IMG/VR virus record: IMGVR_UViG_3300042946_000263
Coordinates: 1-64,000 of that record
Length of the DNA: 64,000 nucleotides
Direction: 5' to 3' (one strand)
From: a virus
Positions 2,628 through 63,200 of this stretch are shown in pieces. The position numbers and the translations under genes are program-made. The notes under the pieces are model-generated. The model saw only the letters and a list, made by a program, of their open reading frames with translations. It searched no databases and had not been told where the DNA came from. Every line of letters starts with the position of its first letter. Position 1 is the first letter of the stretch.

Positions 2628-2744
2628 ATGACACACGAAGATGCAATTTTTATTATCTCATCACTGCATTATATTGAGACAGTGCTGACATCTATTTGGT
2701 TGTTTGTTGGAGTAATCATGATCATGATTGCATGGAAGAGCTGA
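2628..2744 (+). CDS. Very small membrane protein, 38 aa
   Basis: Translates as MTHEDAIFIISSLHY followed by a strongly hydrophobic helix and a short basic end (WKS). It fits exactly between its neighbours and overlaps the next start (TGATG). Shine-Dalgarno AAGGA lies upstream. Confidence 0.55.
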   Translation: MTHEDAIFIISSLHYIETVLTSIWLFVGVIMIMIAWKS

Positions 2745-2968
2745 TGCCTGCTAAGATCACTAAGACCAGTCCATTTACCAACATCACTCGCACGATGCAG
2801 TTTGAACGCTACGATCAGGATGAGTTTGACTCACGCCTATTAGCATGGCGCCGAGGCGAGAAACTTATTCAAGAGGCATTCCCGGAACTGTCTGCTAACG
2901 CTCGCGAGTTCATTAAGAACGGTATTACTACAGAGGAATGGGACAAGTATATGGGCGGAGACGACTGA
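2744..2968 (+). CDS. Hypothetical protein, 74 aa
   Basis: Start taken at the ATG overlapping the upstream stop (TGATG). The sequence MPAKITKTSPFTNITRTMQF leads into an acidic, helical C-terminus ending MGGDD. Unrecognised. This is the last rightward gene before a converging leftward cluster; its stop codon is also the first unit of the 12-bp TGACC repeat. Confidence 0.65.
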   Translation: MPAKITKTSPFTNITRTMQFERYDQDEFDSRLLAWRRGEKLIQEAFPELSANAREFIKNGITTEEWDKYMGGDD

Positions 2969-3067
2969 CCTGTGATGTGACCAACTCGCTGACCAACTTA
3001 ATGACCAACGAGTTGACCTATCGTCTGACCTAAGTGATTACCTATCGGTTGACCAACAATTATTACC
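2966..3067. repeat. 12-bp-periodic TGACC/GGTCA repeat array
   Basis: TGACC (or TTACC) recurs with its first base at 2966, 2978, 2990, 3002, 3014, 3026, 3038 and 3050, always 12 bases apart, and once more at 3063. The other seven bases vary (often AAC or TAT after TGACC). On the minus strand the unit is T(A/T)GGTCANNNNN. It covers the 3' ends of two converging genes and the gap between them. See also 3343-3371 and 3648-3664. Confidence 0.85.
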
Positions 3068-3343
3068 TACGCCAAGAGCAGCGGCGACTCGGGCAACTAC
3101 CGATGCTTTATTCCCACCAATGTGCCATTCATAATCATATACAGGCGTAGTCGGCATTTTCCAGTCATATATGGTAGCGACTTCGCCGTCGGCAAACTTA
3201 ATAATCCATTCTGAATTAGTCTTATCGCCGCCATTAAGCGGCTTACCAAACGCCTCGACCAGATCAGCGTAGGTCGTATTAACATAACCAACCAGACCAG
3301 TCATATAGGCGTCGTCATAGTTATTCGTAACGGTATACTTCAT
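3038..3343 (-). CDS. Conserved phage protein of unknown function, 101 aa
   Basis: Contains TGLVGYVNTTYADLVEAFG and DGEVATIYDWK followed by YEWHIGG. I associate this pattern with a small protein common in tailed phages and plasmids, without known function. The last residues (NNCWSTDR) are encoded inside the 12-bp repeat array, so the C-terminus may have been added by the repeat. GGAG stands eight bases before the ATG. Confidence 0.7.
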   Translation of the reverse strand: MKYTVTNNYDDAYMTGLVGYVNTTYADLVEAFGKPLNGGDKTNSEWIIKFADGEVATIYDWKMPTTPVYDYEWHIGGNKASVVARVAAALGVGNNCWSTDR

Positions 3344-3371
3344 GACCTATCTCCTGACCTATGGGTTGACC
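3343..3371. repeat. Second GGTCA repeat cluster (three units)
   Basis: TGACC starts at 3343, 3355 and 3367, again 12 bases apart. On the minus strand the units lie between the stop of the upstream gene (its TAG overlaps one unit) and the ATG of the downstream gene (which overlaps another). One unit also holds the GGAG ribosome site. Confidence 0.8.
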
Positions 3372-3592
3372 TAGAACTCAGCTACCAACTTACCATTCTC
3401 AATAGAGATATAGATATTAGCAGTTTCAATCTCGCCATCTAGATTCTCGTAGTCGATAGTATACACAATCGTACCGAGAGATGACTTATTATAAGAGGCA
3501 GAGATTATATCATCACCACCATAACCCGATTCGGTTAATAAGTCAACCACATTTTCCGTAGTTAATTTAGTAAAGTCGGTGTTAATAAGCAT
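3371..3592 (-). CDS. Hypothetical protein, 73 aa
   Basis: Small acidic beta-rich protein beginning MLINTDFTKLTTENVVDLL, then a repeated beta pattern (TIVYTIDYENLDGEIETANI). AGGAGAG precedes the ATG. First gene after the leftward promoter at 3617-3644. Family unknown to me. Confidence 0.65.
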   Translation of the reverse strand: MLINTDFTKLTTENVVDLLTESGYGGDDIISASYNKSSLGTIVYTIDYENLDGEIETANIYISIENGKLVAEF

Positions 3593-3616
3593 GTGTTCTC
3601 TCCTATGGTATAGTAT

Positions 3617-3644
3617 ATTATACCTTAATTCCGGTAAAAGTCAA
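3617..3644 (-). promoter_or_regulatory. Leftward sigma70-like promoter
   Basis: On the minus strand: TTGACT (3639-3644), 16 bp, TATAAT (3617-3622), with GG before the -10 as in other promoters of this window. It lies about 25-30 bases upstream of the gene ending at 3371. Confidence 0.75.
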
Positions 3645-3647
3645 GCG

Positions 3648-3664
3648 TGACCTAGACCATGACC
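3648..3664. repeat. Third GGTCA repeat cluster (two units)
   Basis: TGACC at 3648 and 3660, 12 bases apart, just downstream of the leftward gene that ends at 3664 and next to the -35 of the leftward promoter. Confidence 0.65.
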
Positions 3665-3927
3665 TAGTATGACTCCGATGCCTTAGTATCGATCAATCCG
3701 GCGTATAACTCATTATAAGGATTATCCCGACGAATTAACTCCGCCTCGGCCAATTTGGTTTCCGGCATAATATAAGCGCCAGAAACACCAAAATTCCAGT
3801 AAATCAAATAGTGTAATTGATCGTCAGTAAACCGATCAATAGTAATTCTCCCCTGTTCTAATTTGTCGGCCATTTCATCAGTAATAGCCAACCAATTCTC
3901 GTTAATATCATCAGAGGTAGTAATCAT
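3664..3927 (-). CDS. Hypothetical protein, 87 aa
   Basis: Acidic helical protein, MITTSDDINENWLAITDEMA at the N-terminus, with DQLHYLIYWNFGVSG in the middle. AAGGAGAATTATAATG gives a strong start. Its stop codon overlaps a GGTCA repeat. Second gene after the leftward promoter at 4221-4249. Confidence 0.65.
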   Translation of the reverse strand: MITTSDDINENWLAITDEMADKLEQGRITIDRFTDDQLHYLIYWNFGVSGAYIMPETKLAEAELIRRDNPYNELYAGLIDTKASESY

Positions 3928-3950: not shown

Positions 3951-4187
3951 TTAGGCGAGTTGTTTAAGCGTATACATTTGACCGCCGTATATATCTTCGC
4001 CGTGAACGATATTAATCATATCGCCGTCTAGGACGATAGTAAACTCGTCGTAATAGCCGATAAGCGGATCGGCGGACTCACAACCGGCAAAGGCATCCCA
4101 GTCATATTTGTCGAACGGCTTAAACTCAGTCTTAGCCATAACAGAGAATAGCTCAGCTTGAGTCGGGTAGGTAAACGAAGCGGTCAT
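3951..4187 (-). CDS. Hypothetical protein, 78 aa
   Basis: Start placed at the ATG at 4187 (MTASFTYPTQAELFSVMA), which has AAGGGAG at good distance. An in-frame ATG at 4214 would lie almost at the expected transcription start of the promoter at 4221-4249. Acidic protein with GYYDEFTIVLDGDMINIV. Unrecognised. Confidence 0.65.
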   Translation of the reverse strand: MTASFTYPTQAELFSVMAKTEFKPFDKYDWDAFAGCESADPLIGYYDEFTIVLDGDMINIVHGEDIYGGQMYTLKQLA

Positions 4188-4220
4188 AGAGTCAACTCCC
4201 TTATCAATCATCATATTATT

Positions 4221-4577: not shown

Positions 4578-4766
4578 ATGAATAAGCGGATTACTATAGA
4601 AAAGTATGGCGAATATTATAGAATAATCGCCGCTTTATATAATCCTGACGACTATTATCCGGTAAGGGTAGAGGAGATTGTTGAGGGAAAGGTATTAAGC
4701 GAGATTAAGGGAATACTATTCGAATTACTACCGGATTGGAAAGATGTAGTAATAGAGGGGGAATAA
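4578..4766 (+). CDS. Hypothetical protein, tandem paralogue A (62 aa)
   Basis: Begins MNKRITIEKYGEYYRIIAA and ends PDWKDVVIEGE. It is a clear duplicate of the next gene, with the same IEEIVEGKVL-type core and LLPDWK end. GGGGG precedes the ATG. No known family. Confidence 0.65.
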   Translation: MNKRITIEKYGEYYRIIAALYNPDDYYPVRVEEIVEGKVLSEIKGILFELLPDWKDVVIEGE

Positions 4767-4767
4767 A

Positions 4768-4950
4768 ATGACTAAGCGGATTACTATAGAAAAGAACGGC
4801 GAATATTATAGGATTATTGCCGCCCATTATAATAATATAGAGCCAGTTTACATAGAGGAAATAGTAGAGGGTAAGGTATTAAAAGAAATTAAAGGCATAT
4901 TATTCCAATTACTCCCGGATTGGAAGAATATTAAGATTGAAGGAGAATAA
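4768..4950 (+). CDS. Hypothetical protein, tandem paralogue B (60 aa)
   Basis: Begins MTKRITIEKNGEYYRIIAA and shares most residues with the upstream gene, differing mainly by a short deletion in the middle (DDYYPV versus IEPV) and in the last strand. The intergenic sequence GGGGAATAAAATG is also duplicated. Confidence 0.65.
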   Translation: MTKRITIEKNGEYYRIIAAHYNNIEPVYIEEIVEGKVLKEIKGILFQLLPDWKNIKIEGE

Positions 4951-10967: not shown

Positions 10968-11173
10968 TTGATCGTAGAACTGGCGAAGTTTGGTTTATGA
11001 GCCGTGTGGCTTATAGGAATTTCGCGACGAAGTCGGTGCTACCTTTGGGGCCAGTCCTACGGTTGCATCGCCATAGTGACTGGGGATGGCTCTGTAGTTA
11101 TAGGACTTATGCTGCTTATATTAAAATCGTTAATCGTCGCCGTAGACCGTCTCTTTTAAAGAAGAGGAAATAA
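10964..11173 (+). CDS. Very basic small protein, 69 aa
   Basis: Overlaps both neighbours (ATGA upstream, AATG downstream). Arg-rich, ending NRRRRPSLLKKRK, with a tryptophan-containing centre. The charge suggests nucleic-acid binding; no family recognised. Confidence 0.55.
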   Translation: MIDRRTGEVWFMSRVAYRNFATKSVLPLGPVLRLHRHSDWGWLCSYRTYAAYIKIVNRRRRPSLLKKRK

Positions 11174-11754
11174 TGCCTCTTATAGAGAAATACGATGCTG
11201 TAAATGATTCTTTGTTTAGGAAAGCTAGGGATATTATTTTTTCTGATAATTTTCCTTGGTATTACGTTGCTGCGACTGCCTATACTGAGAATGTTGACCA
11301 GTATGAAACTCTCTATAATGGTAGCTTTTACCATCTGGCCAGAAACTCTGAAATTGCTAATACTCTTGAAGATTGTTTATTGGTTGCCGCTGACAGAGCA
11401 GGTGTTGCTGTAAACAAAATTCATCGTATTCGTATTGGTATGATTCCAATTTGTCCTGTCGTTTCCGTTAATCCTCCGCATGTTGATATGGAATTTCCTC
11501 ATAATGTTGGGTTGTTGTATATGAACGACAGCGATGGCCATACGCATCTCTACAACGAGAAATATGATTGTAATTATGAGAAAAATCACAGCGGGCAGTA
11601 TTATATCGAAGTACTAAACAAAAAAGTGACCATCAAAGAGATAATTCTTCCTGCAGAAAATAAAATGGTATTTTTTGATGGTTTGACTTATCATTCTAGC
11701 TCGCCTCCTACGAAGACAAAACGTAGGATCGCTGTTAATTATGTTTTCGATTGA
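11173..11754 (+). CDS. 2-oxoglutarate/Fe(II)-dependent oxygenase-like protein, copy 1
   Basis: The 193-residue protein carries the family metal triad: PHVD (His103, Asp105) and a distal His174 in YHSSSPP, with a basic residue (Arg184/185 in KRRIAVNYVF) to hold 2-oxoglutarate. It shares a DFPWYY-like N-terminal motif (NFPWYY), MNDSDGHTHLY, and the end pattern with the proteins at 17877 and 20484, so the three are paralogues. Such enzymes hydroxylate protein, nucleic acid or small molecules; the substrate here is unknown. Confidence 0.8.
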   Translation: MPLIEKYDAVNDSLFRKARDIIFSDNFPWYYVAATAYTENVDQYETLYNGSFYHLARNSEIANTLEDCLLVAADRAGVAVNKIHRIRIGMIPICPVVSVNPPHVDMEFPHNVGLLYMNDSDGHTHLYNEKYDCNYEKNHSGQYYIEVLNKKVTIKEIILPAENKMVFFDGLTYHSSSPPTKTKRRIAVNYVFD

Positions 11755-16560: not shown

Positions 16561-17700
16561 ATGGCTCGTCGTCCAGGACTTATTAAACGTAAACCTAAGA
16601 CTATTCGTGTTACGAAGTCAGAGGCATATATTGTTAATAAGAAGCATCTGGGCGACGAGCCTATTTTCACAGACAAATCTACTAATGCAGATTATATGAA
16701 TGGTCTGAATTGGTATAATTATATGGCCAGTAATTCGGAGGCCAAGGAGTATCTCAGCGATTACCTCAAGAACATAGGTAGGGTTGCTGAGGCAAAGAAG
16801 ATCAAGCGTATCAGCGACTCTGATATTCCTACCACTGCCGCTTGGTCGGTGCGTATGATCAGTCGTGGTTATAAACCAAACGAATTTACTAGAAATTTTA
16901 TTGACGAGAAGATCAAAGCTGCCCTCAACAAGATAAATACTGAAGAACCAACAGAAGAATCTAATAAACCTGTTGTTTCTATTCAAGATCGCATGCGTGA
17001 GCGTGCACACGATATTCTTGGTGAAATTGAGGGCATGATAGACGATTACATCTACGACAATGTAGAGTTCTCATTATACGAATGGCTGCAGGCGAATAAC
17101 ATTCCTGCCGCTTACGCTACTTCTATCATCGCTAAAATGACCCCAGTACTTGATGAATTGCTTGAAGCATATGAGGGGAAATGTGAACAACTCAAAGAAG
17201 GCTACCGCCATTACAAAAAAGCGGATATCAAACGCCTTGTATCGTTCTACAACACGCTTATCGAGGATGCGGAGAGATACTCTTCGAACACGAAAAAAGT
17301 TAATAAAGCTCGCAAGCCAAGAACGATATCGGTCGAAAAGAAAATCAAAAATCTCAAGTACCAGAAGGAAGATGCAACTTACAAGATTGCATCAGTGTCT
17401 CCGGAGAAAATCATCGGCGCACTGGAGCTCTGGACTTTCAATACGAAGTATAAGACGATTACGAGGCTTACAGCGATTGATCGTGGTGGGCTCCAGGTCA
17501 AGGGCACTAGCATTACGAACTTTGACGAAAGTAGTTCTGTTACGATGTCCGTTGGAAGAAAAGATCCGAACGAGTTTCTCAAGCGCATACTTGAGGGTGG
17601 CAAACTTGTCCTACGAAAAGTCTTTGATGAGATCAAGACGCAGAAGCCTCTTGCGTATCGTATCAACGAAAACACGATTCTATTGAGGGTAGTTACATGA
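16561..17700 (+). CDS. Conserved phage protein of unknown function, 379 aa
   Basis: A basic start (MARRPGLIKRKPKTIRVTKS) leads into GLNWYNYMASNSEAKEYLSD and SDIPTTAAWSVRMISRGY. I associate this layout with a protein conserved in T4-like phages of marine and soil bacteria, function unknown. Residues 135-260 are largely helical; the last 80 are beta-rich. GGAG precedes the ATG. It overlaps the next small gene by four bases. Confidence 0.6.
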   Translation: MARRPGLIKRKPKTIRVTKSEAYIVNKKHLGDEPIFTDKSTNADYMNGLNWYNYMASNSEAKEYLSDYLKNIGRVAEAKKIKRISDSDIPTTAAWSVRMISRGYKPNEFTRNFIDEKIKAALNKINTEEPTEESNKPVVSIQDRMRERAHDILGEIEGMIDDYIYDNVEFSLYEWLQANNIPAAYATSIIAKMTPVLDELLEAYEGKCEQLKEGYRHYKKADIKRLVSFYNTLIEDAERYSSNTKKVNKARKPRTISVEKKIKNLKYQKEDATYKIASVSPEKIIGALELWTFNTKYKTITRLTAIDRGGLQVKGTSITNFDESSSVTMSVGRKDPNEFLKRILEGGKLVLRKVFDEIKTQKPLAYRINENTILLRVVT

Positions 17701-17876: not shown

Positions 17877-18470
17877 ATGTATATATCAGACATTATTCCA
17901 GTTTCTTATCAAGACGAAATCGAGAGAATAATTAACGCTAACGACTTCCCTTGGTTTTATACTCATGATATATCTCCAGGAAGTTTGGTGGATGATAGAA
18001 TAACAGAAGCTTCTGCAATTTGTCATACACTTTATAGTACAGAACGTGGTATAAATTCAGACTATTTCCATTCGTTCAAGCCAATAATGTATTTCTTAGA
18101 AGAAAAGACTGGTATAACTTGTGCTCGTTTTCTGAGAATTAGAATAAGAAGATCATTTCCTGTTCCTGGCCACTGTCTGTCAAAGTATAATAGGCCACAT
18201 ATTGATCTTCCGGAGATTATACCGTTCACAACGTTGGTTTATTATACGGAAGATAGCGATGGTGATACTATTCTGTTTAAGGAAGAATATTATCCAGGAT
18301 TAGATCCAGATAAAGTTGATGTTTGCAGCTTAACAGAAACAGATAGGTTCGTACCAAAGAAAGGAGCAGGATTGGTATTTAATGGTTATAGGTATCATGC
18401 AGGTAACAATCCAGTAAACTTTAAAAAACGAACCATCATAAATTTTGACTTTGTAGAAAGAGAGAAGTGA
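17877..18470 (+). CDS. 2-oxoglutarate/Fe(II)-dependent oxygenase-like protein, copy 2
   Basis: 197 residues with NDFPWFY near the N-terminus, PHID (His108, Asp110), EDSDGDTILF, a distal His174 in YHAGNNP, and Arg185 in FKKRTIINF. It is a paralogue of the proteins at 11173 and 20484. The complete triad suggests an active enzyme. The ATG follows the upstream TAA with no gap and has no clear ribosome site, so translation is probably coupled. Confidence 0.8.
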   Translation: MYISDIIPVSYQDEIERIINANDFPWFYTHDISPGSLVDDRITEASAICHTLYSTERGINSDYFHSFKPIMYFLEEKTGITCARFLRIRIRRSFPVPGHCLSKYNRPHIDLPEIIPFTTLVYYTEDSDGDTILFKEEYYPGLDPDKVDVCSLTETDRFVPKKGAGLVFNGYRYHAGNNPVNFKKRTIINFDFVEREK

Positions 18471-19206: not shown

Positions 19207-19267
19207 AGAAGATAAAGTAACTGCTCCTTGGATTGAGGAGTTTGAAAATCAGATACAAACACAATAA
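19148..19267 (+). CDS. Possible nested small protein, 39 aa
   Basis: Third overlapping frame in this stretch: MTLNSPNVSSETARQIRAIK followed by an acidic helix ending IQTQ. The ribosome site is weak (TAGGG). Its stop overlaps the AATAAATA promoter-like sequence upstream of the tmRNA. It may be translated only by coupling. Confidence 0.35.
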   Translation: MTLNSPNVSSETARQIRAIKEDKVTAPWIEEFENQIQTQ

Positions 19268-19270
19268 ATA
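19242..19270 (+). promoter_or_regulatory. Possible tmRNA promoter (sigma70-like and late-type elements overlap)
   Basis: TTGAAA (19242-19247), 17 bp, TAAATA (19265-19270). The same place reads AATAAATA (19263-19270), close to the TATAAATA late-promoter motif of this genome. Either would start RNA near 19277, at the beginning of the tmRNA acceptor piece. Confidence 0.4.
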
Positions 19271-19590
19271 GGTTTGCCGAGGTCGTTGAGAGACGAAAAA
19301 TAGGTTTCTTGGACGTGGGTGCGATTCCCACCGCCTCCACCATGGATACATAGATCGGAAGTGGATGAAAAAGGATACACACACCCGATTATGCAGTTGC
19401 CTTTTACCTGCAACTATGTATCTTTGATGGGGGCGATTCAGGTTCGACAGGATTCAGTAAGGTCGTAAGGAGACCAAAGGCGAAACGTAGATGCAAACGA
19501 TAATGATGCATCATTTGGAGTTTATGCTCTAGCGGCATAATCCATTGGGTTTGGCAACTGCACCTAGAAACAGAAGCATGTTGCATTTTC
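19271..19590 (+). ncRNA. ssrA: Circularly permuted two-piece tmRNA
   Basis: The acceptor piece comes first. A T-arm (GTGGG, loop TGCGATT, CCCAC; 19315-19331) is followed by the acceptor strand CGCCTCC (19332-19338) and an encoded ACCA (19339-19342). The coding piece starts at 19429 with GGGGGCG, which pairs with CGCCTCC (one G-U), then GATTCAGGTTCGACAGG as in tmRNAs. After a resume site (GTAGAT) the tag codons (19493-19537) read ANDNDASFGVYALAA and end at TAA. The intervening piece carries GATACATAG (19345-19353) and CTATGTATC (19414-19422), extending the acceptor stem for processing. This permuted order is known from alphaproteobacteria. tmRNA rescues stalled ribosomes and tags the product for proteolysis. 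Confidence 0.87.
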
Positions 19591-19605
19591 TAATTGGAGT
19601 ATATT

Positions 19606-20367
19606 ATGTTTTCATTTTTTCATAGAAGTTCTGTTTTAGATGTTGATTGTTTCACATCTAATACTAGTGTTTATAAGACAACGCCAATTGTTAATTCTTA
19701 TAAAGCTAAACCCGAATGGATGGATAATGTTCCTAAGACTCGTCATGAGTATGCATATAATCCGTTAGGAAACATTTACAATAATTCTTTCAGAAGCGTT
19801 AGATCTTGTATTGGATTCTTGGACTTATATAAACGTGGATTCATTCTAGAGTCTTGGGCTGATTTTGCTATTGATGTAAGAAACGAAACTTTCTCTTACA
19901 ACTATACGACTGGCCCAGAGCCAAAGATTCCTCCGGATAGTATGTTTAATCCTGGTTTTATAGATTATCATATGTTCAAGTTGACTAGTCCTTGGCTGAT
20001 CACCACCAAAGAGCGTGTTCCATTTATTTGTTTTGGGACTGAATGGTCTTTAGAAAACATCGATGCTCGTATTATTCCTGGGTCTATTACTTTTCATGAT
20101 GTTTCGTTCACTAATGTGTTTATGGCTTTTAAGAAAGCAAAACAGGGCGAACAGTATTTGATGAAGATCCCCATGGGCGAAGCTCTTATGCAATTCGTTC
20201 CATTGACTGAAAAGAAGGTTAAGATACATAATCATCTAATTAGCGATCAAGAGATGAATCAAAAGAGCCTAACTCCTAGTACCAGTATATATGGATGGAG
20301 AAAGACTTTTTCTTTACTACGTCGAAACGAAAAGCGTGAAAAGAAATGTCCATTTGACTTTTCGTGA
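19606..20367 (+). CDS. Conserved T4-like phage protein of unknown function, 253 aa
   Basis: Start ATG 19606 (GGAGTATATT upstream); a TTG 12 bases earlier is less likely. The run KPEWMDNVPK, SVRSCIGFLDLYKRGFIL and SWADFAIDV is typical of a protein I know from T4-like phages of marine bacteria, often near oxygenase genes, without known function. The C-terminus (FSLLRRNEKREKKCPFDFS) is basic. Its stop lies next to the tRNA promoter. Confidence 0.6.
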   Translation: MFSFFHRSSVLDVDCFTSNTSVYKTTPIVNSYKAKPEWMDNVPKTRHEYAYNPLGNIYNNSFRSVRSCIGFLDLYKRGFILESWADFAIDVRNETFSYNYTTGPEPKIPPDSMFNPGFIDYHMFKLTSPWLITTKERVPFICFGTEWSLENIDARIIPGSITFHDVSFTNVFMAFKKAKQGEQYLMKIPMGEALMQFVPLTEKKVKIHNHLISDQEMNQKSLTPSTSIYGWRKTFSLLRRNEKREKKCPFDFS

Positions 20368-20391: not shown

Positions 20392-20468
20392 GGTCCCCTA
20401 GCTCAGCTGGATAGAGCAACGGATTTCTACTCCGTGGGTCGAGGGTTCGAATCCTTCGGGGACCGCCA
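20392..20468 (+). tRNA. tRNA-Arg (anticodon UCU)
   Basis: A 77-base cloverleaf with encoded CCA: acceptor GGTCCCC/GGGGACC, D-stem GCTC/GAGC, anticodon stem ACGGA/TCCGT with loop TTTCTAC (anticodon TCT), T-arm GAGGG-TTCGAAT-CCTTC. It reads AGA (and AGG by wobble), the arginine codon that dominates the late structural genes of this window but not the early ones. Confidence 0.95.
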
Positions 20469-20483
20469 TTTCTCGAGGTTGTG

Positions 20484-21038
20484 ATGGAAATTATTGACAA
20501 TTTTCTAGACAAAGCTATTAGCGATGATCTAGAACAAACATTATCCGGAAGCGACTTCCCTTGGTATTACAGCGACTTCACCACACACTCAAAACAATAC
20601 ACCACTGATAAGACTCGAGATTGCAGTCAATTTACTCATGTATTCTTTTTACATGATAATATTAATTCAGGTTATTATCCATTAATTCAACCAATCATCG
20701 AAGCCTCTGGTAGATCTACTGAAAAGTTAGTAAGAGCCAAGGCTAATCTGATTTACAGGCATTCTGATTGGCCTGTTGGCGTTTACAATCTTCCTCACGC
20801 CGACCATACGAAAGAAGTTGACGCAGAGTCATTATTATATTATGTTAATGACAGCGATGGGTGCACTGTAATATTCGAAGAAAAAGAACCGATAAATAAG
20901 CATGAATTGACAATAAAACAAAAAATTAAACCTATGAGAAATAGGTTAATTGCCTTTGATTCTATGTTATTGCATGCTAGCACTCCTCCATCTTCTCATG
21001 AATTGAGAATGGTGATCAATCTAGTTTTCACAAAATAA
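20484..21038 (+). CDS. 2-oxoglutarate/Fe(II)-dependent oxygenase-like protein, copy 3
   Basis: 184 residues with SDFPWYY, PHAD (His105, Asp107), VNDSDGCTVIF, distal His164 in LHASTPP, and Arg175 in LRMVINLVF. Full triad, so likely active, and clearly paralogous to 11173 and 17877. The ATG at 20484 is preferred to GTG 20481 for its distance from CGAGG. It follows the tRNA and may share its promoter. Confidence 0.8.
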   Translation: MEIIDNFLDKAISDDLEQTLSGSDFPWYYSDFTTHSKQYTTDKTRDCSQFTHVFFLHDNINSGYYPLIQPIIEASGRSTEKLVRAKANLIYRHSDWPVGVYNLPHADHTKEVDAESLLYYVNDSDGCTVIFEEKEPINKHELTIKQKIKPMRNRLIAFDSMLLHASTPPSSHELRMVINLVFTK

Positions 21039-21377: not shown

Positions 21378-21772
21378 ATAAACTATTGATTGCTGCAGCA
21401 GTTCTATTCTCAACTTCTGCTCTAGCAGATTATGATGTGGTAGTTTCTAAACGTAATCAGACAATGACAGTTTATGAAGATGGAGAGTTAATCGAACAGT
21501 GGCCAGTTTCTACCGCACGTAGAGGCTACGTAACACCATCAGGAACTTTCCATCCTTATTCTTATCAACTAATGCACTACTCAAAGAAGTTCGACAATGC
21601 CCCGATGCCTCATTCTATCTTTTTTAGCGGTGGTTATGCAATTCACGCTACTCCTCATGTTGGTGCTTTGGGTCGACCCGCTTCTCACGGCTGCGTTCGC
21701 CTTTCTCCAAGCAATGCTGCTACTCTTTACAGTATGACTAGAGGCGTTCCAACTACGATCACGATTAAATGA
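21374..21772 (+). CDS. Periplasmic L,D-transpeptidase (YkuD family)
   Basis: Starts with GTG in the overlap GTGA. Residues 1-18 (MNKLLIAAAVLFSTSALA) are a signal peptide. The YkuD catalytic motif is complete: His91 in YAIHATP, then SHGCVRL with catalytic Cys107 and Arg109. These enzymes make or exchange 3-3 crosslinks in peptidoglycan. The 132-residue length is close to a bare catalytic domain, with no LysM or other binding domain. A phage copy could alter the host wall during infection, for example to resist competing phages or to tune lysis. Confidence 0.88.
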   Translation: MNKLLIAAAVLFSTSALADYDVVVSKRNQTMTVYEDGELIEQWPVSTARRGYVTPSGTFHPYSYQLMHYSKKFDNAPMPHSIFFSGGYAIHATPHVGALGRPASHGCVRLSPSNAATLYSMTRGVPTTITIK

Positions 21773-22257
21773 TATTCATTTTTGATAATGTAATATCTAA
21801 AGAACGTTGTGAGAATTATTGTAAGTATATTCAAACAACATACGACGAAAGGCTTGCATTAGGAATGAATCCTATGAGTTTTGCTACAAGGCTCATAGAT
21901 TTGGATGATCCTCTTATTCAAGAGGTACAAGATTATCTAGAATCAAAAATCAGATATAAATTAAACCACCGATGGACTCAGTTACAGATATGGCCTGTCG
22001 ACAGTTATACTGTCAGACATATTCATGATGATCCTAGGGCTGGTGATGCTAATTTCAACAGTATGTTATATCTGAACGACGATTTCGAAAGTGGAAAATT
22101 CTTTACTGACGACATAATCATCCAGCCAAAACCTGGAAGATTAACGCTGTTCAACGGTCAAGAAGTATATCATGGTATTGACCCCGTACAAAAGTCTAAC
22201 AGATATTCTATCATTTTTTGGTGGAACATCGATTTAAGTAAAGGAACAAACTCATGA
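21769..22257 (+). CDS. 2-oxoglutarate/Fe(II)-dependent oxygenase-like protein, copy 4 (distinct subfamily)
   Basis: 162 residues with RHIHDDP (His86-x-Asp88), distal His135 in YHGIDPV and Arg145 in NRYSIIFWW. It lacks the DFPWYY opening of the other three copies and is nearer the classic prolyl-hydroxylase layout. The ATG overlaps the transpeptidase stop (ATGA). Confidence 0.78.
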   Translation: MIFIFDNVISKERCENYCKYIQTTYDERLALGMNPMSFATRLIDLDDPLIQEVQDYLESKIRYKLNHRWTQLQIWPVDSYTVRHIHDDPRAGDANFNSMLYLNDDFESGKFFTDDIIIQPKPGRLTLFNGQEVYHGIDPVQKSNRYSIIFWWNIDLSKGTNS

Positions 22258-55021: not shown

Positions 55022-58000
55022 ATGGCAAATACAGTTTTCAAACTGCGTCGATCATCAGTCGCAGGTAAAGTCCCAAATACATCTACTGTCGCAATCGGCG
55101 AATTAGCAATCAACCTTACCGATAAAAAGCTATTCTCGTCAGACGGTTCGCTAGTATTTGAGATTGGCGCCAATCTAACAGATCTCCAAGTATCAAATAA
55201 TATCACAACATCAAACATCAATGTAACAGACACAGCATTATTTCAGAATGTTGCTGTATTTCATGATGTAGCTATATTCGGCGCTATTAGTGCCAACAGC
55301 AGCAACGGCGCAGCAGGACTGGTTCTTACTTCAAACGGTTCTGGGGTTTATTGGGCGCCAGCTGGTGGTAGCGCCACAGGTCCAGTGAGACAACAATTTA
55401 CTGGCGACGGAAACACAACAACATTTGCTATATCTGGTGGTTACGAATCTAATACTGTTTCAGTATTCTTGAATGGTGTTATGCTTCATAACGGTCTTGA
55501 GGCCAATGTTCAGTCTGGAGTCAACGTTGTTATTTCTCCTGCTCCTGCAAACGGTGCTTTGATTGACGTTGTTGGTTATTCTGTTATCACATCAACTTCT
55601 TATCTGACAATTGGTAATACTAGTATCTCTGGTAATGTAATATCAATCGGTAATTCTTCTGTTAACACTCAGATTGTTCCAGGAAACGTATATTTAAACG
55701 GTTCTACACTAGTCATTGGTAATACATCAAGCAATATTACCATTGATTCTACTACTATTAGTATTGCTGGTGCGACCATTAACACTTCGTCGTTTAGCGG
55801 AACAGCGAACAATACTCTTTATGTTGGGTCAGTTGCTTCTAATGACGTTGTTTCAAATACGAGCTTGCAAGCTAACCTAACAGTCATACGTTCTGATATA
55901 GCAAATTCATATTCTAATTCTGTTAATTATACTAGTTTTGCTATAGGAACTGCTAATCTTGCTATGGTAGCGAACGCTGATGCAGCATATTCTAATGCCA
56001 CCTCATACACTGACTCTAAAATAGCAACAGCTAACTCTGCTATAGTTGCTAACGCTTCTGCTGCATACAGTAATTCCGTATTTTATACTGACTCTAAGAT
56101 TGCTACTGCTAATGCTGCCATAGTTGCTAACGCTTCTGCAGCCTATTCTAATTCTGTAAGCTATGTTGATACCCAAATAGCAATTGCCAATTCTGCGATA
56201 GTCGCTAATGCATCATCAGCCTATTCTAACTCTGTAAGCTATGTTGATAGTAAGATTAGCACCGCTAACTCTGCTATAGTTGCTAACGCTTCTGCTGCTT
56301 ATTCTAATTCTGTGACGTATATTGACAGTTCTATTGGGGTTGCTAATGCTGGCATAGTTGCTAATGCTTCTGCAGCCTATTCTAATGCTGTGACGTATAT
56401 TGACAGTTCTATTGGGGTTACTAATGCTGCCATAGTTGCTAATGCTTCTGCTGCATATTCCAACGCTATTTCGTATACAGATTCTAAGATAGCTACTGCT
56501 AATACATCTATGGTAGCCAATGCAGCAGCTGCTTATTCTAATTCTGTGACTTATACAGATACGAAAATTGCAACAGCTAACGCTGCTATTACTGGTAACG
56601 CTGCTACTGCTTATTCGAATGCTACTTCGTATACAGACTCAAAGATAGCTACTGCTAATGCTGCTATAACAGCTAATGCTTCTGCAGCGTATACTAACGC
56701 TACTTCTTATTCTTCTAATGCTTCTAATATATCTTCTGGAACAGTAGCAGAAGCTAGATTACCATATAGAATGAACCAAGATGTTCGCAATACAGATAAT
56801 GTAACATTCGGACAAATGACTTTGACGGGGAATCTGGTTGTTTCTGGTAATGTTAATATTATCGGCGCTAATAATCTATCGCTAGTCGATAATATGATTT
56901 ATCTAAATTCTAACAGCACTGTCTCGAATCCAGATATTGGTATTGCTGGTAACTATAATGATGGAACATATTATCACACTGGTTTCTTTAGAGATGCCAG
57001 CGATGGTATCTGGAAGGTATATGATAATTATGCTCCAGAACCTGATGCTAATGTTTGGATTGACACTACAAATACAACATTTCATATAGCAAACTTCCAA
57101 GCAAATGCACTATTCCTAGGCAACACAAGTTCATTCTGGGTTGTTGCTAATACATCTGGTGTTCATGCTCCCGCAGTAAACACAGTTAATGTTGTAATAA
57201 GCGGCGGTATTTCTGCCAATGGAACTTATGGTTCGGCAGGTCAATCTCTTGTTTCTAACGGAACAGGCGCTTACTGGGCAACTGCTGGCGCTACACTAAA
57301 CGCTAACAATACAGACAGCTCAACGTATTACATTGGTCTTTCTAGTGGTTCGTCAGGAGCTTGGACTAATGCTGTTGTTTCTACCAGCAAGTTGTATTTT
57401 GTTCCATCAACTGGTACGCTTACTGTTGGATCTGCTACTGTTAATTCGACAAATTATTCTGGAACGTCCAACAACTCCGCTTATCTAGGCGGAACAGCAG
57501 CAGCTTCTTACTTGTTATCTTCTACTGCGTCATCGACTTATCTACCACTTTCTGGTGGTACAATTACAGGAACAACTACTGTTAATGGCGATGTTCGTAT
57601 TTTCAAAAACGGCGCAGATTCTATTAATAGTCATTTATACTTTGCCAGTGCTGGTAACTCACAAGCATGGAACTGGCAGCTGGATTCAAGTGGTAATGCT
57701 GCTCTTTGGGGATATCCTAACAGCGCCGCATGGTCTAAAGTTTGTTATTTTACTCCCACAGGAAATCTTTTCGCATCTAATGATATAAGTTGCGGTTCAA
57801 GATTTCACTTCACCGCAGCAGGAGCATGGACAGGTGGCAGTTACGGCTTGATAGGAATGAACTGGGGCGGCGCAGCTGGTACATATAAAAACTTTGCTGT
57901 TTTTGATTATCCAAACGGTAGAGCCATGTTCACCGTTAACGGTCAGACTAGAGATGTTGAAATTTTTGGTATCTCATATGCATATGGTAGCTCTAGATCG

Positions 58001-60270: not shown

Positions 60271-63200
60271 ATGGCTCAGAATAGAGAAATTGGCGAACTT
60301 GGTCAAGTTGTAACAGTCAATACAGCTGCAGAAAGCGTTAGCGTTGGTAACACTGTTATCCATACTATCGGAATAACTGTAGGTAATACTTCCATTCATA
60401 GTAATGGTATTACTATTTCTGGCCAGTCTATGAACAACACTTCATATCCAGGCACAGCAAATAACACTCTTTATGTCGGGTCAGTAACGGCTAATGATGT
60501 TGTTTCTAATACAGACCTTCAAGCTAATTTAGTTGTCATTAGATCAGATATAGCCAACTCCTATTCTAATACAGTTTCATATATCAGTAGTTCTATAGAA
60601 ACTGCTAACGCTGCAATGGTTGCTAATGCTGCAGCAGCCTATTCTAACTCTGTAACATATACTGATACCAAGATATTCACGGCTAATGCTGCTATAGTTG
60701 CTAATGCTTCTGCTGCATATTCTAACGCTGTGAGTTATACGGATAATGCATATTCCAATGCAGTATCATATATCAACAGTTCTATTGGAACTTCTAATGC
60801 TGCTATAGTTGCTAATGCTTCTGCTGCATATTCTAACGCTGTTACATATACAGATACTAAGATTGGAACAGCTAACCTAGCAATTGCTGATGCATACTCT
60901 AACTCCGTTTCTTATACTGATTCTAAGATAGCAACAGCTAACCTAGCAATCGCTAACGCATATTCTAATGCAATTTCTTATGCAGACTCAAAGATAGCTA
61001 CTGCTAACTCTGCTATAACAGCTAATGCGTCAGCTGCATATTCTAATGCAGTTTCGTATACTGATTCTAAAATTGCTACTGCGAATCTAGCGATTGCTGA
61101 CGCATATTCGAATTCGGTCAGTTATACAGATTCAAAGATAACTACCGCTAATTCAGCCATAACAGCTAATGCGTCAGCAGCGTATAGCAACTCCGTTTCT
61201 TACACAGATTCAAAGATAGCTACTGCTAATGCCGCTATCTCTAGTGCATACTCCAACTCCGTTTCTTACACAGATTCAAAGATAGCTATCGCCAATTCAG
61301 CCATAACAGCTAATGCTTCTGCAGCATATTCTAATGCCACAACATACGCATCAAACGCTTCTAATATTTCTTCCGGAACTGTAGCTGAAGCTAGACTTCC
61401 ATACAGAATGGATCAGAATGTCAGAACTTCTGATTCTGTAGAATTTAAAGGTATGACCCTAACTGGAAACCTTGTTGTTTCTGGTAATGTTAACATTGTT
61501 GGTGCGAATAATCTTTCGCTAGTCGATAATATGATTTACCTAAATTCTAACAGCACTGTTTCCAATCCAGATCTTGGATTTGCTGGTAATTATAACGATG
61601 GTACTTATCGCCATACTGGGTTTTTCAGAGACGCCAGCGATGGTATCTGGAAAGTTTTTGACAATTATGGACCAGAACCAGATGCTAGTCCTTATATAGA
61701 CACTTCAAATACAACTTTCCATCTAGCTAATTTTCAAGCGAACAACTATTTCGCAGGTAACACAACATCTAACTGGTTTGTTGCTAACAATTCTGGCGCA
61801 TATGCTACTAAATTCTATGACATCAATAATACTGCTTATTATCTAGACCCTGCTTCTACCTCTTTGTTGAACGGGTTGATAGTAGGATATGGAGGAACAT
61901 CATCAACTATCACAATGTATGATAGTGATAATGGTAATAGATTCATTCATGCCAATTCTGGTAGATTAGGATTCTTAAATCTTGCTGCTGATGGTTGGTG
62001 GGCATGGAACGATGACAGTGGTAACTGGTTTTCTGCAACTTCTAGTAGATCACCAATCTTCTATGATTCGGACAATACTGCTTATTATATTGATGCCGCA
62101 TCAACCTCTGTTTTAAATGCTGCGATCATTGGTGGTCATACATATTCATCTTACAATACCAGTAACATTCAGATAAACACCGCAGGAAATAGTTCTGTAG
62201 GATTGTTGATGAAAAACTCTGGTGGTACTTTTGGTTTCCAATTGTATGGTGGATCCGGAACCGAATATGGGTTCCTTGGATCTTCTTGGGGCAATTGGGA
62301 TATGCAGAAAACCGTTGGCGGTAATCTATATCTAAATAACAATACAAATTATTATCTGAACCCACCAAGTGCGTCGTTACTAAGCACACTAACTCTCAAT
62401 GGCGGAACGAGCAATCCATTAAACGTCAGAACTTCTTCTGCTGGGCCATGGGCTATCCACTTAACTCGTGATGATTTGTCAAATTCTGTTAGTGTTTACA
62501 ACGCAGGTGGTTATTGGTATTTCAGCTCTTATGTTGCTTCTGGTGGTTCTTTCCGTGCTCCGATCTTCTATGATTCTGATAATACTGCATACTACATCGA
62601 TCCGAATAATACATCGAGCGTGTTAGGTATCACACTCAACGGTAAAATTAATTTTCCATCAGGTTCAGGCGGTGGTACTACTTTCTCTGCCAATCATTAC
62701 AGTATGGGCGAAGATATTGCTGATGGTGGATGGTCACATCCCCATTACTCAGATTTGATTATTGGTTATCATACTGGTATTCGTATTGGCGCATCATATT
62801 CTGGCATAAGATTCTATAATAATTCACCAACAACAGATGCTAATAACGATGGTAATGGTGACGGTGGTGAAGCATTACTTATGACTGTTGGTGGCCATGC
62901 TGGTGGATTTGTTACCGCTCACGAATCAATACGTTCTCCAATTTTTTATGATTCTAATAATACTGCTTATTATGTTGATCCTAACTCCACAACATCACTA
63001 AGAACTGTTGGTAGTTGGAGAGCAGATTCATCATCATGGGACGGCGAGTATTCTGGTAAAATTCAATATCACGGTAGTAACTGGTATTTTCAAGCTGCAA
63101 GCGAATGGATTTTCAGAAATTCCGGTGGCTCCAATGTATTTTATGTCAATCAATCTGGAACAATATATGCGCCATTTTGGTATGATTCTAATAATACCGC

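Follow-up and report, generated by a model that had tools for sequence, protein, structure and literature searches.

A tandem array of short sites, each a conserved word of seven bases followed by five free ones, punctuates the gene junctions of one small leftward operon in the window, that is, in the whole 64,000-nucleotide stretch of DNA analysed here, which belongs to a virus record of 66,329 bases. The array is present in related phages with its core and its spacing conserved, it keeps to gene junctions, it occurs in both orientations relative to the flanking genes, and it is absent from one close relative. From this pattern we infer binding by a protein, an action on DNA and an effect on transcription. 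That the array is a set of double-stranded-DNA sites for a putative head-to-tail DNA-binding protein, which blocks or insulates transcription, is a reading to which we give about an even chance.

The array and its setting

The repeat was picked out in a sequence-only reading of the window, and its coordinates hold. Eight cores, TGACC or TTACC, start in exact 12-bp steps at 2966, 2978, 2990, 3002, 3014, 3026, 3038 and 3050; the core at 3063, TTACC, is a ninth that follows 13 bp after the eighth and is one base off step. Three further units start at 3343, 3355 and 3367, and two at 3648 and 3660. At step 12, GGT[AC]A occurs up to eight times in succession in the window; among 300 order-1 Markov shuffles the longest run was 1 in 216 and 2 in the other 84. 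When every 5-mer and every period of 8 to 30 are considered, the maximum is 6 in the window and 2-3 in the null. The features of the region are:

2744-2968, plus strand: g2744, 74 aa, phrog_20898, convergent with the array operon; homology anchor
2966-3069, minus strand: terminal array of nine units, filling the junction between convergent genes
3038-3343, minus strand: gene A, 101 aa, of a family found in many phages
3343-3373, minus strand: start array of gene A, three units, TAGGTCA-accca-TAGGTCA-ggaga-TAGGTC[ATG]
3371-3592, minus strand: small gene, 73 aa
3617-3644, minus strand: sigma-70-type promoter TTGACT-16-TATAAT before gene 3371-3592 (11/12 consensus matches; consensus match only)
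3648-3666, minus strand: two-unit array, TAGGTCAtggtcTAGGTCA, containing the stop codon TAG of gene 3664-3927
3664-3927, minus strand: small gene, 87 aa
3951-4214, minus strand: small gene, 87 aa, first of the leftward block
4249: consensus promoter TTGACT-17-TAATAT before the first leftward gene (3951-4214)

Four small leftward genes face a rightward block that ends at 2968, and the array units are built into the coding signals on both sides. The terminal array holds the TGA stop codon of the rightward gene (2966-2968) and reaches into gene A, whose last codons and stop codon are indeed made of array units, as had been noticed. In the start array of gene A, the first unit contains the stop codon TAG of gene 3371-3592, the Shine-Dalgarno sequence GGAGA lies in the spacer, and the A of the last unit is the A of the start codon. 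The clusters had also been placed over a -35 region; their positions at gene ends, stop codons and a start codon stand, but the pair at 3648 only adjoins the -35 hexamer TTGACT (3644-3639), at 3 bp and without overlap.

Against Pfam the four operon proteins give nothing above the cut-off, and against PHROG only insignificant matches. Gene A gives an AlphaFold model with pLDDT 87, with no PDB match at E < 1e-3. The idea that the element belongs to gene A itself was rejected, since other phages (L009-L034) have homologues of gene A and no array. Next to the array operon stand two small genes in tandem, duplicates of each other (62 and 60 aa; 4578-4766 and 4768-4950); L214 shows one matching copy.

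A T4-like phage of an alphaproteobacterium is suggested as the source, because the window carries a permuted tmRNA of alphaproteobacterial type and structural genes that look T4-like. The tmRNA gene lies at 19238-19631 (tag ANDNDASFGVYALAA) and is accompanied by a tRNA-Arg at 20392. Elsewhere in the window are four proteins of 160-200 aa that look alike and carry HxD-like motifs, possible 2-oxoglutarate/Fe(II) dioxygenase paralogues judged by eye only (11173-11754, 17877-18470, 20481-21038 and 21769-22257), and tail-fibre-like genes with long tandem repeats of 78 bp and 66/144 bp (55948-56697 and 60821-61338).

Constraint on core, spacer and step

Conservation had been ascribed to a five-base core only; the conserved unit is in fact 7 bp, YWGGTCR in the leftward sense, followed by N5. 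Among the 117 units of 27 hand-picked arrays there are 94 distinct 12-mers and 79 distinct spacers, and neighbouring units lie exactly 12 bp apart in 88 of 90 cases. GGT is invariant in the 117 units, the detector itself requiring GGT. Position 2 is A in 59 units and T in 58, never C or G, and the spacers are low in information; degenerate arrays, for example that of L249, do show C or G at position 2.

Hand-aligned orthologous arrays give the same picture, with 0/120 changes in GGTC versus 33/130 in the spacers. All seven changes at position 2 are interchanges of A and T, versus 1 of 33 spacer changes (Fisher 4e-7, indicative only, as the pairs overlap and are non-independent). Interchange of A and T to the exclusion of G and C is typical of duplex DNA reading or bending. 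The search for the 12-bp period in relatives, proposed at the outset, did not refute the array: the core, the step and the places at gene junctions are kept while the spacers diverge. The TAG of TAGGTCA serves as the stop codon of upstream genes, and the TGA on the opposite strand of the units as that of rightward genes at convergent junctions. Units inside genes read LV(A/N/K), the genes ending ...ALVA* in L210 and L171 and ...LVNRLVKG* in L173.

Distribution among relatives

An IMG/VR pattern scan for three units with W gave 71 stretches, most of which are coding or perfect repeats. Those sharing genes with the window are L214, L210, L171, L197/L177, L173, L196, L190 and L168; L071, from an earlier GGTCA-only scan, does so too. 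The arrays of these relatives lie at gene junctions. The gene-start form TWGGTCA-ggaga-TAGGTC[ATG] is found in L214, L210, L171, L196 and L223-L228, and all 12 stretches returned by a second blind IMG/VR scan for this 21-base form, TWGGTCRGGAGATWGGTCRTG, are gene-sharing relatives, with L223-L228 added as a new subclade. The 21-base signature can serve as a finder of this phage group in metagenomes. A GGTCA-only four-unit scan gave, among the matches listed, mostly coding repeats. In 257 Gb of bacterial genomes the gene-start form had 6 matches versus about 2 estimated by chance, which is near chance, and none of the six resembles an array locus, one having a third, loose unit.

When loci were retrieved by alignment query with g2744 as anchor, arrays were present at 16 of the nearest 18, in three cases in degenerate form only, and at 0 of 62 further ones. 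Whole-contig searches of 105-162 kb contigs placed the arrays essentially at one locus, control patterns giving 0-1; a single stray pair, in G001, is close to the number estimated to arise by chance. Single-protein homology scans with 3374-3592, 3954-4214 and 2744-2965 gave no match, a DNA search found no relative among cultured phages, and the array is absent from the 10 kb region read of phiM9, which weakly matches gene 3371-3592. The relatives' contigs are mostly incomplete, and L210, L197, L177 and L071 are nearly identical, so that several of the counts rest on close relatives.

Similar repeats occur in other phages. In L112 and L153 (also L184, L191 and L194) 12-bp TGACCWAN repeats lie within an ORF; the repeat of L112 and L153 reads VDQSVDQ in a gene that looks like a phage replisome organiser, and may represent origin iterons. 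L172 and L175 carry several kilobases of 12-bp repeats of TTGGTCA type, reading LVxD, in a phage that shares with the window just the gene at 16561-17700 (35%).

The array-less relative and terminators

In L241, gene A is 92% identical to that of L210 and the array is absent. The stop-to-start junction has 12 nt, TAGGAGAGCAAT, and the coding unit has been lost synonymously, with TTGGTTGCCTAA in place of TTGGTCGCCTAG, the gene ending TTG GTT GCC TAA with the core broken. At the convergent junction a bidirectional intrinsic terminator, AAAAGCCCGGAGAGATCCGGGCTTTT, stands where the array would be, and no such terminator was found at the array junctions of the window, L214, L173, L190 and L242. L210 and L171 have an array plus a terminator, the latter in the rightward direction only, and in L168 the last two array units themselves form a terminator hairpin that is followed by a T tract. 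Elsewhere in these phages, convergent junctions carry bidirectional terminators, as judged from automatic ORF calls with many spurious pairs. Since L241 has a terminator in the array's place and array junctions mostly lack one, it is suggested that the terminal array does the work of a terminator.

DNA or RNA as the acting form

All arrays in the window's clade are co-directional with the operon, and those of L245, L247, L249 and L252 are antisense to the flanking genes. The L249 array also codes for DQxx repeats and the L252 array for a C-terminus, and coding may contribute there. The sense strand of the window's terminal array has a folding z of -5.2 relative to dinucleotide shuffles, or -4.0 when the cores are fixed, and the terminal arrays of the window, L210, L171 and L173 all fold beyond the core-fixed null (z -3.2 to -4.0). 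Those of L214 (z -0.6) and L190 (z -0.1) do not, and gene-start arrays are unstructured as RNA. RNA structure is not the general function of the arrays, because the excess of folding is missing in L214, in L190 and at gene starts. No known RNA family was found at the arrays. The antisense arrays, the restriction of position 2 to A and T and the fixed step together favour duplex DNA, rather than RNA, as the form in which the sites would act.

Alternative explanations

The units might nevertheless act in the sense mRNA, where UWGGUCR could be bound by an RNA-binding regulator or could aid ribosome re-initiation, giving translational control of the kind put forward for the start-associated sequences (SAS) of cluster K mycobacteriophages. 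A role in RNA near start codons had been raised at the outset. Most gene-start arrays end in a unit fused to the start codon (TAGGTC[ATG] or [GTG]) and carry the Shine-Dalgarno GGAGA in the last spacer, a base-precise placement that is expected of a translational element and counts against a DNA binder. The co-directional arrays throughout the window's clade and the lack of structure in the gene-start arrays fit as well. However, the antisense arrays and the A/T-only wobble weaken this explanation, as do the long terminal arrays with no gene downstream; single-stranded RNA offers no obvious reason for a fixed 12-nt step or for A or T alone at position 2, and tight gene packing would by itself place a Shine-Dalgarno sequence in the spacer. 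Control through mRNA is on balance unlikely. A more structural variant would make the terminal array simply a hairpin or terminator at the 3' end of an RNA, from which the other arrays were copied. It draws on the excess folding in the window, L210, L171 and L173, on two changes, read from the sequence, by which the window differs from the others (one compensatory, one G-U), and on the hairpin and T tract of L168. This variant is very unlikely, as the terminal arrays of L214 and L190 have no excess, the gene-start arrays are unstructured, and most terminal hairpins lack a T tract.

The arrays could also be recombination junctions, either as short repeated homology or as a recombinase site for the exchange of small-gene cassettes. 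Precisely between two copies of the array, L210 carries an additional short gene that L171 lacks, and the genes that follow the arrays differ in L173, L242, L223 and L226. Yet any repeat can yield gene exchange as a by-product, the differing spacers usually leave just 7 bp of uninterrupted homology, the core persists within codons as well as in single-gene settings, and no gene for a recombinase was seen next to the arrays. Recombination as the function of the arrays is thus rather improbable; they are also sites of gene gain and loss, perhaps as a by-product. Free variation through slippage, the outcome that had been named as telling against the array, was not seen. Although identical 12-mers in L247 indicate that units are duplicated, the diversity of spacers, the invariant GGT, the near-invariant step and the retention of the core by orthologous units that have lost the spacer largely refute neutral or selfish tandem repeats, and their chances are slight indeed.

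Proposed mechanism

If the arrays are sites for a DNA-binding protein, each 12-bp site (YWGGTCR plus five free bases) would be recognised by a sequence-specific binder of duplex DNA, probably phage-encoded, which would polymerise along the array and so cause an occupied gene junction to block or insulate transcription. Where the genes converge, the occupied array would replace the intrinsic terminator of the array-less relative, and at the gene starts and the internal promoter it would damp a small early-type operon. The arrays of L210 and L171 that are accompanied by a terminator, and that of L168 which itself forms a terminator hairpin, count against this. A protein bound side by side along one face of the DNA had been envisaged earlier. 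A protein in register with the sites is still the best reading, but 'one face' is a misfit because 12 bp is 1.14 turns of relaxed B-DNA, a rotation of about 51 degrees per site; the bound protein would be expected to wind round the DNA or to wrap it, in the manner of phi29 p6.

A SWIM zinc-finger protein encoded at 1073-1453 was considered as the specific binder and rejected, being also encoded in the array-less L241 genome. This SWIM-like protein (126 aa, CxC-x8-CxH) has no Pfam match and is kept in nearly all array-bearing relatives.

More tentatively, the array may be a new kind of phage control element, possible though doubtful, in which a polymerising binder on 12-bp sites punctuates one small-gene operon, with stop and start codons built in, terminators replaced and each gene gated. 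The strict geometry, the clear clade distribution and the existence of an array-less relative with a near-identical gene make the choice between DNA and RNA directly testable, and what the element replaces can likewise be tested through L241.

Comparison with known systems

Few short elements are known to be conserved at the gene junctions of phages, and most of them lack an explanation. The closest analogues of the array are the SAS of cluster K mycobacteriophages, the stoperators of L5 and p6 of phi29, and as tested it belongs to neither of the first two. The SAS/ESAS are 13-bp elements, GGGATAGGAGCCC, that include a Shine-Dalgarno sequence and lie a few bases before start codons over half the genome (PMC3203893). 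Both are short asymmetric elements at the Shine-Dalgarno sequence and start codon of several small non-structural genes, and the SAS, too, nearly always has one orientation and sometimes includes the upstream stop codon (PMC3203893). Unlike the single, scattered SAS, the units here are 7 bp long in 12-bp steps, with the Shine-Dalgarno sequence in the free spacer, and they occupy one locus, where some also stand at the ends of convergent genes or run antisense to genes. The consensus YWGGTCR N5 does not match the 13-bp GGGATAGGAGCCC, and the longest arrays are found at convergent gene ends rather than immediately before gene starts.

In cluster A mycobacteriophages such as L5, each stoperator is a lone 13-mer to which the immunity repressor binds, and a genome has more than 20 of them (PMC9283540). 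They too are asymmetric sites in short intergenic spaces, and they mostly follow the direction of transcription and are thought to stop elongation (PMC9283540). The sites here are tandem and local, in a T4-like phage, essentially at one locus per 105-162 kb contig rather than dispersed, and their orientation to transcription is co-directional in the window's clade and antisense in the four relatives named above.

ParR-parC and TubR-tubC offer another parallel, with direct repeats in tandem close to an operon, to which small DNA-binding proteins bind that oligomerise and are also repressors (PMC5016525). The array shares with these its direct repeats at constant step (88 of 90 spacings of 12 bp). 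The parC and tubC sites precede a partition operon that includes an actin- or tubulin-like motor (PMC5016525), whereas the arrays here lie at several gene junctions, and no motor gene was seen among the four operon genes. A p6 monomer of phi29 contacts the minor groove every 12 bp, and the protein wraps the DNA and takes part in the early-to-late switch (PMC10899789). It binds by bendability, genome-wide, in contrast to the conserved word of the array (PMC10899789). The 12-bp step and the restriction of position 2 to A and T are compatible with putative minor-groove contacts of the p6 type.
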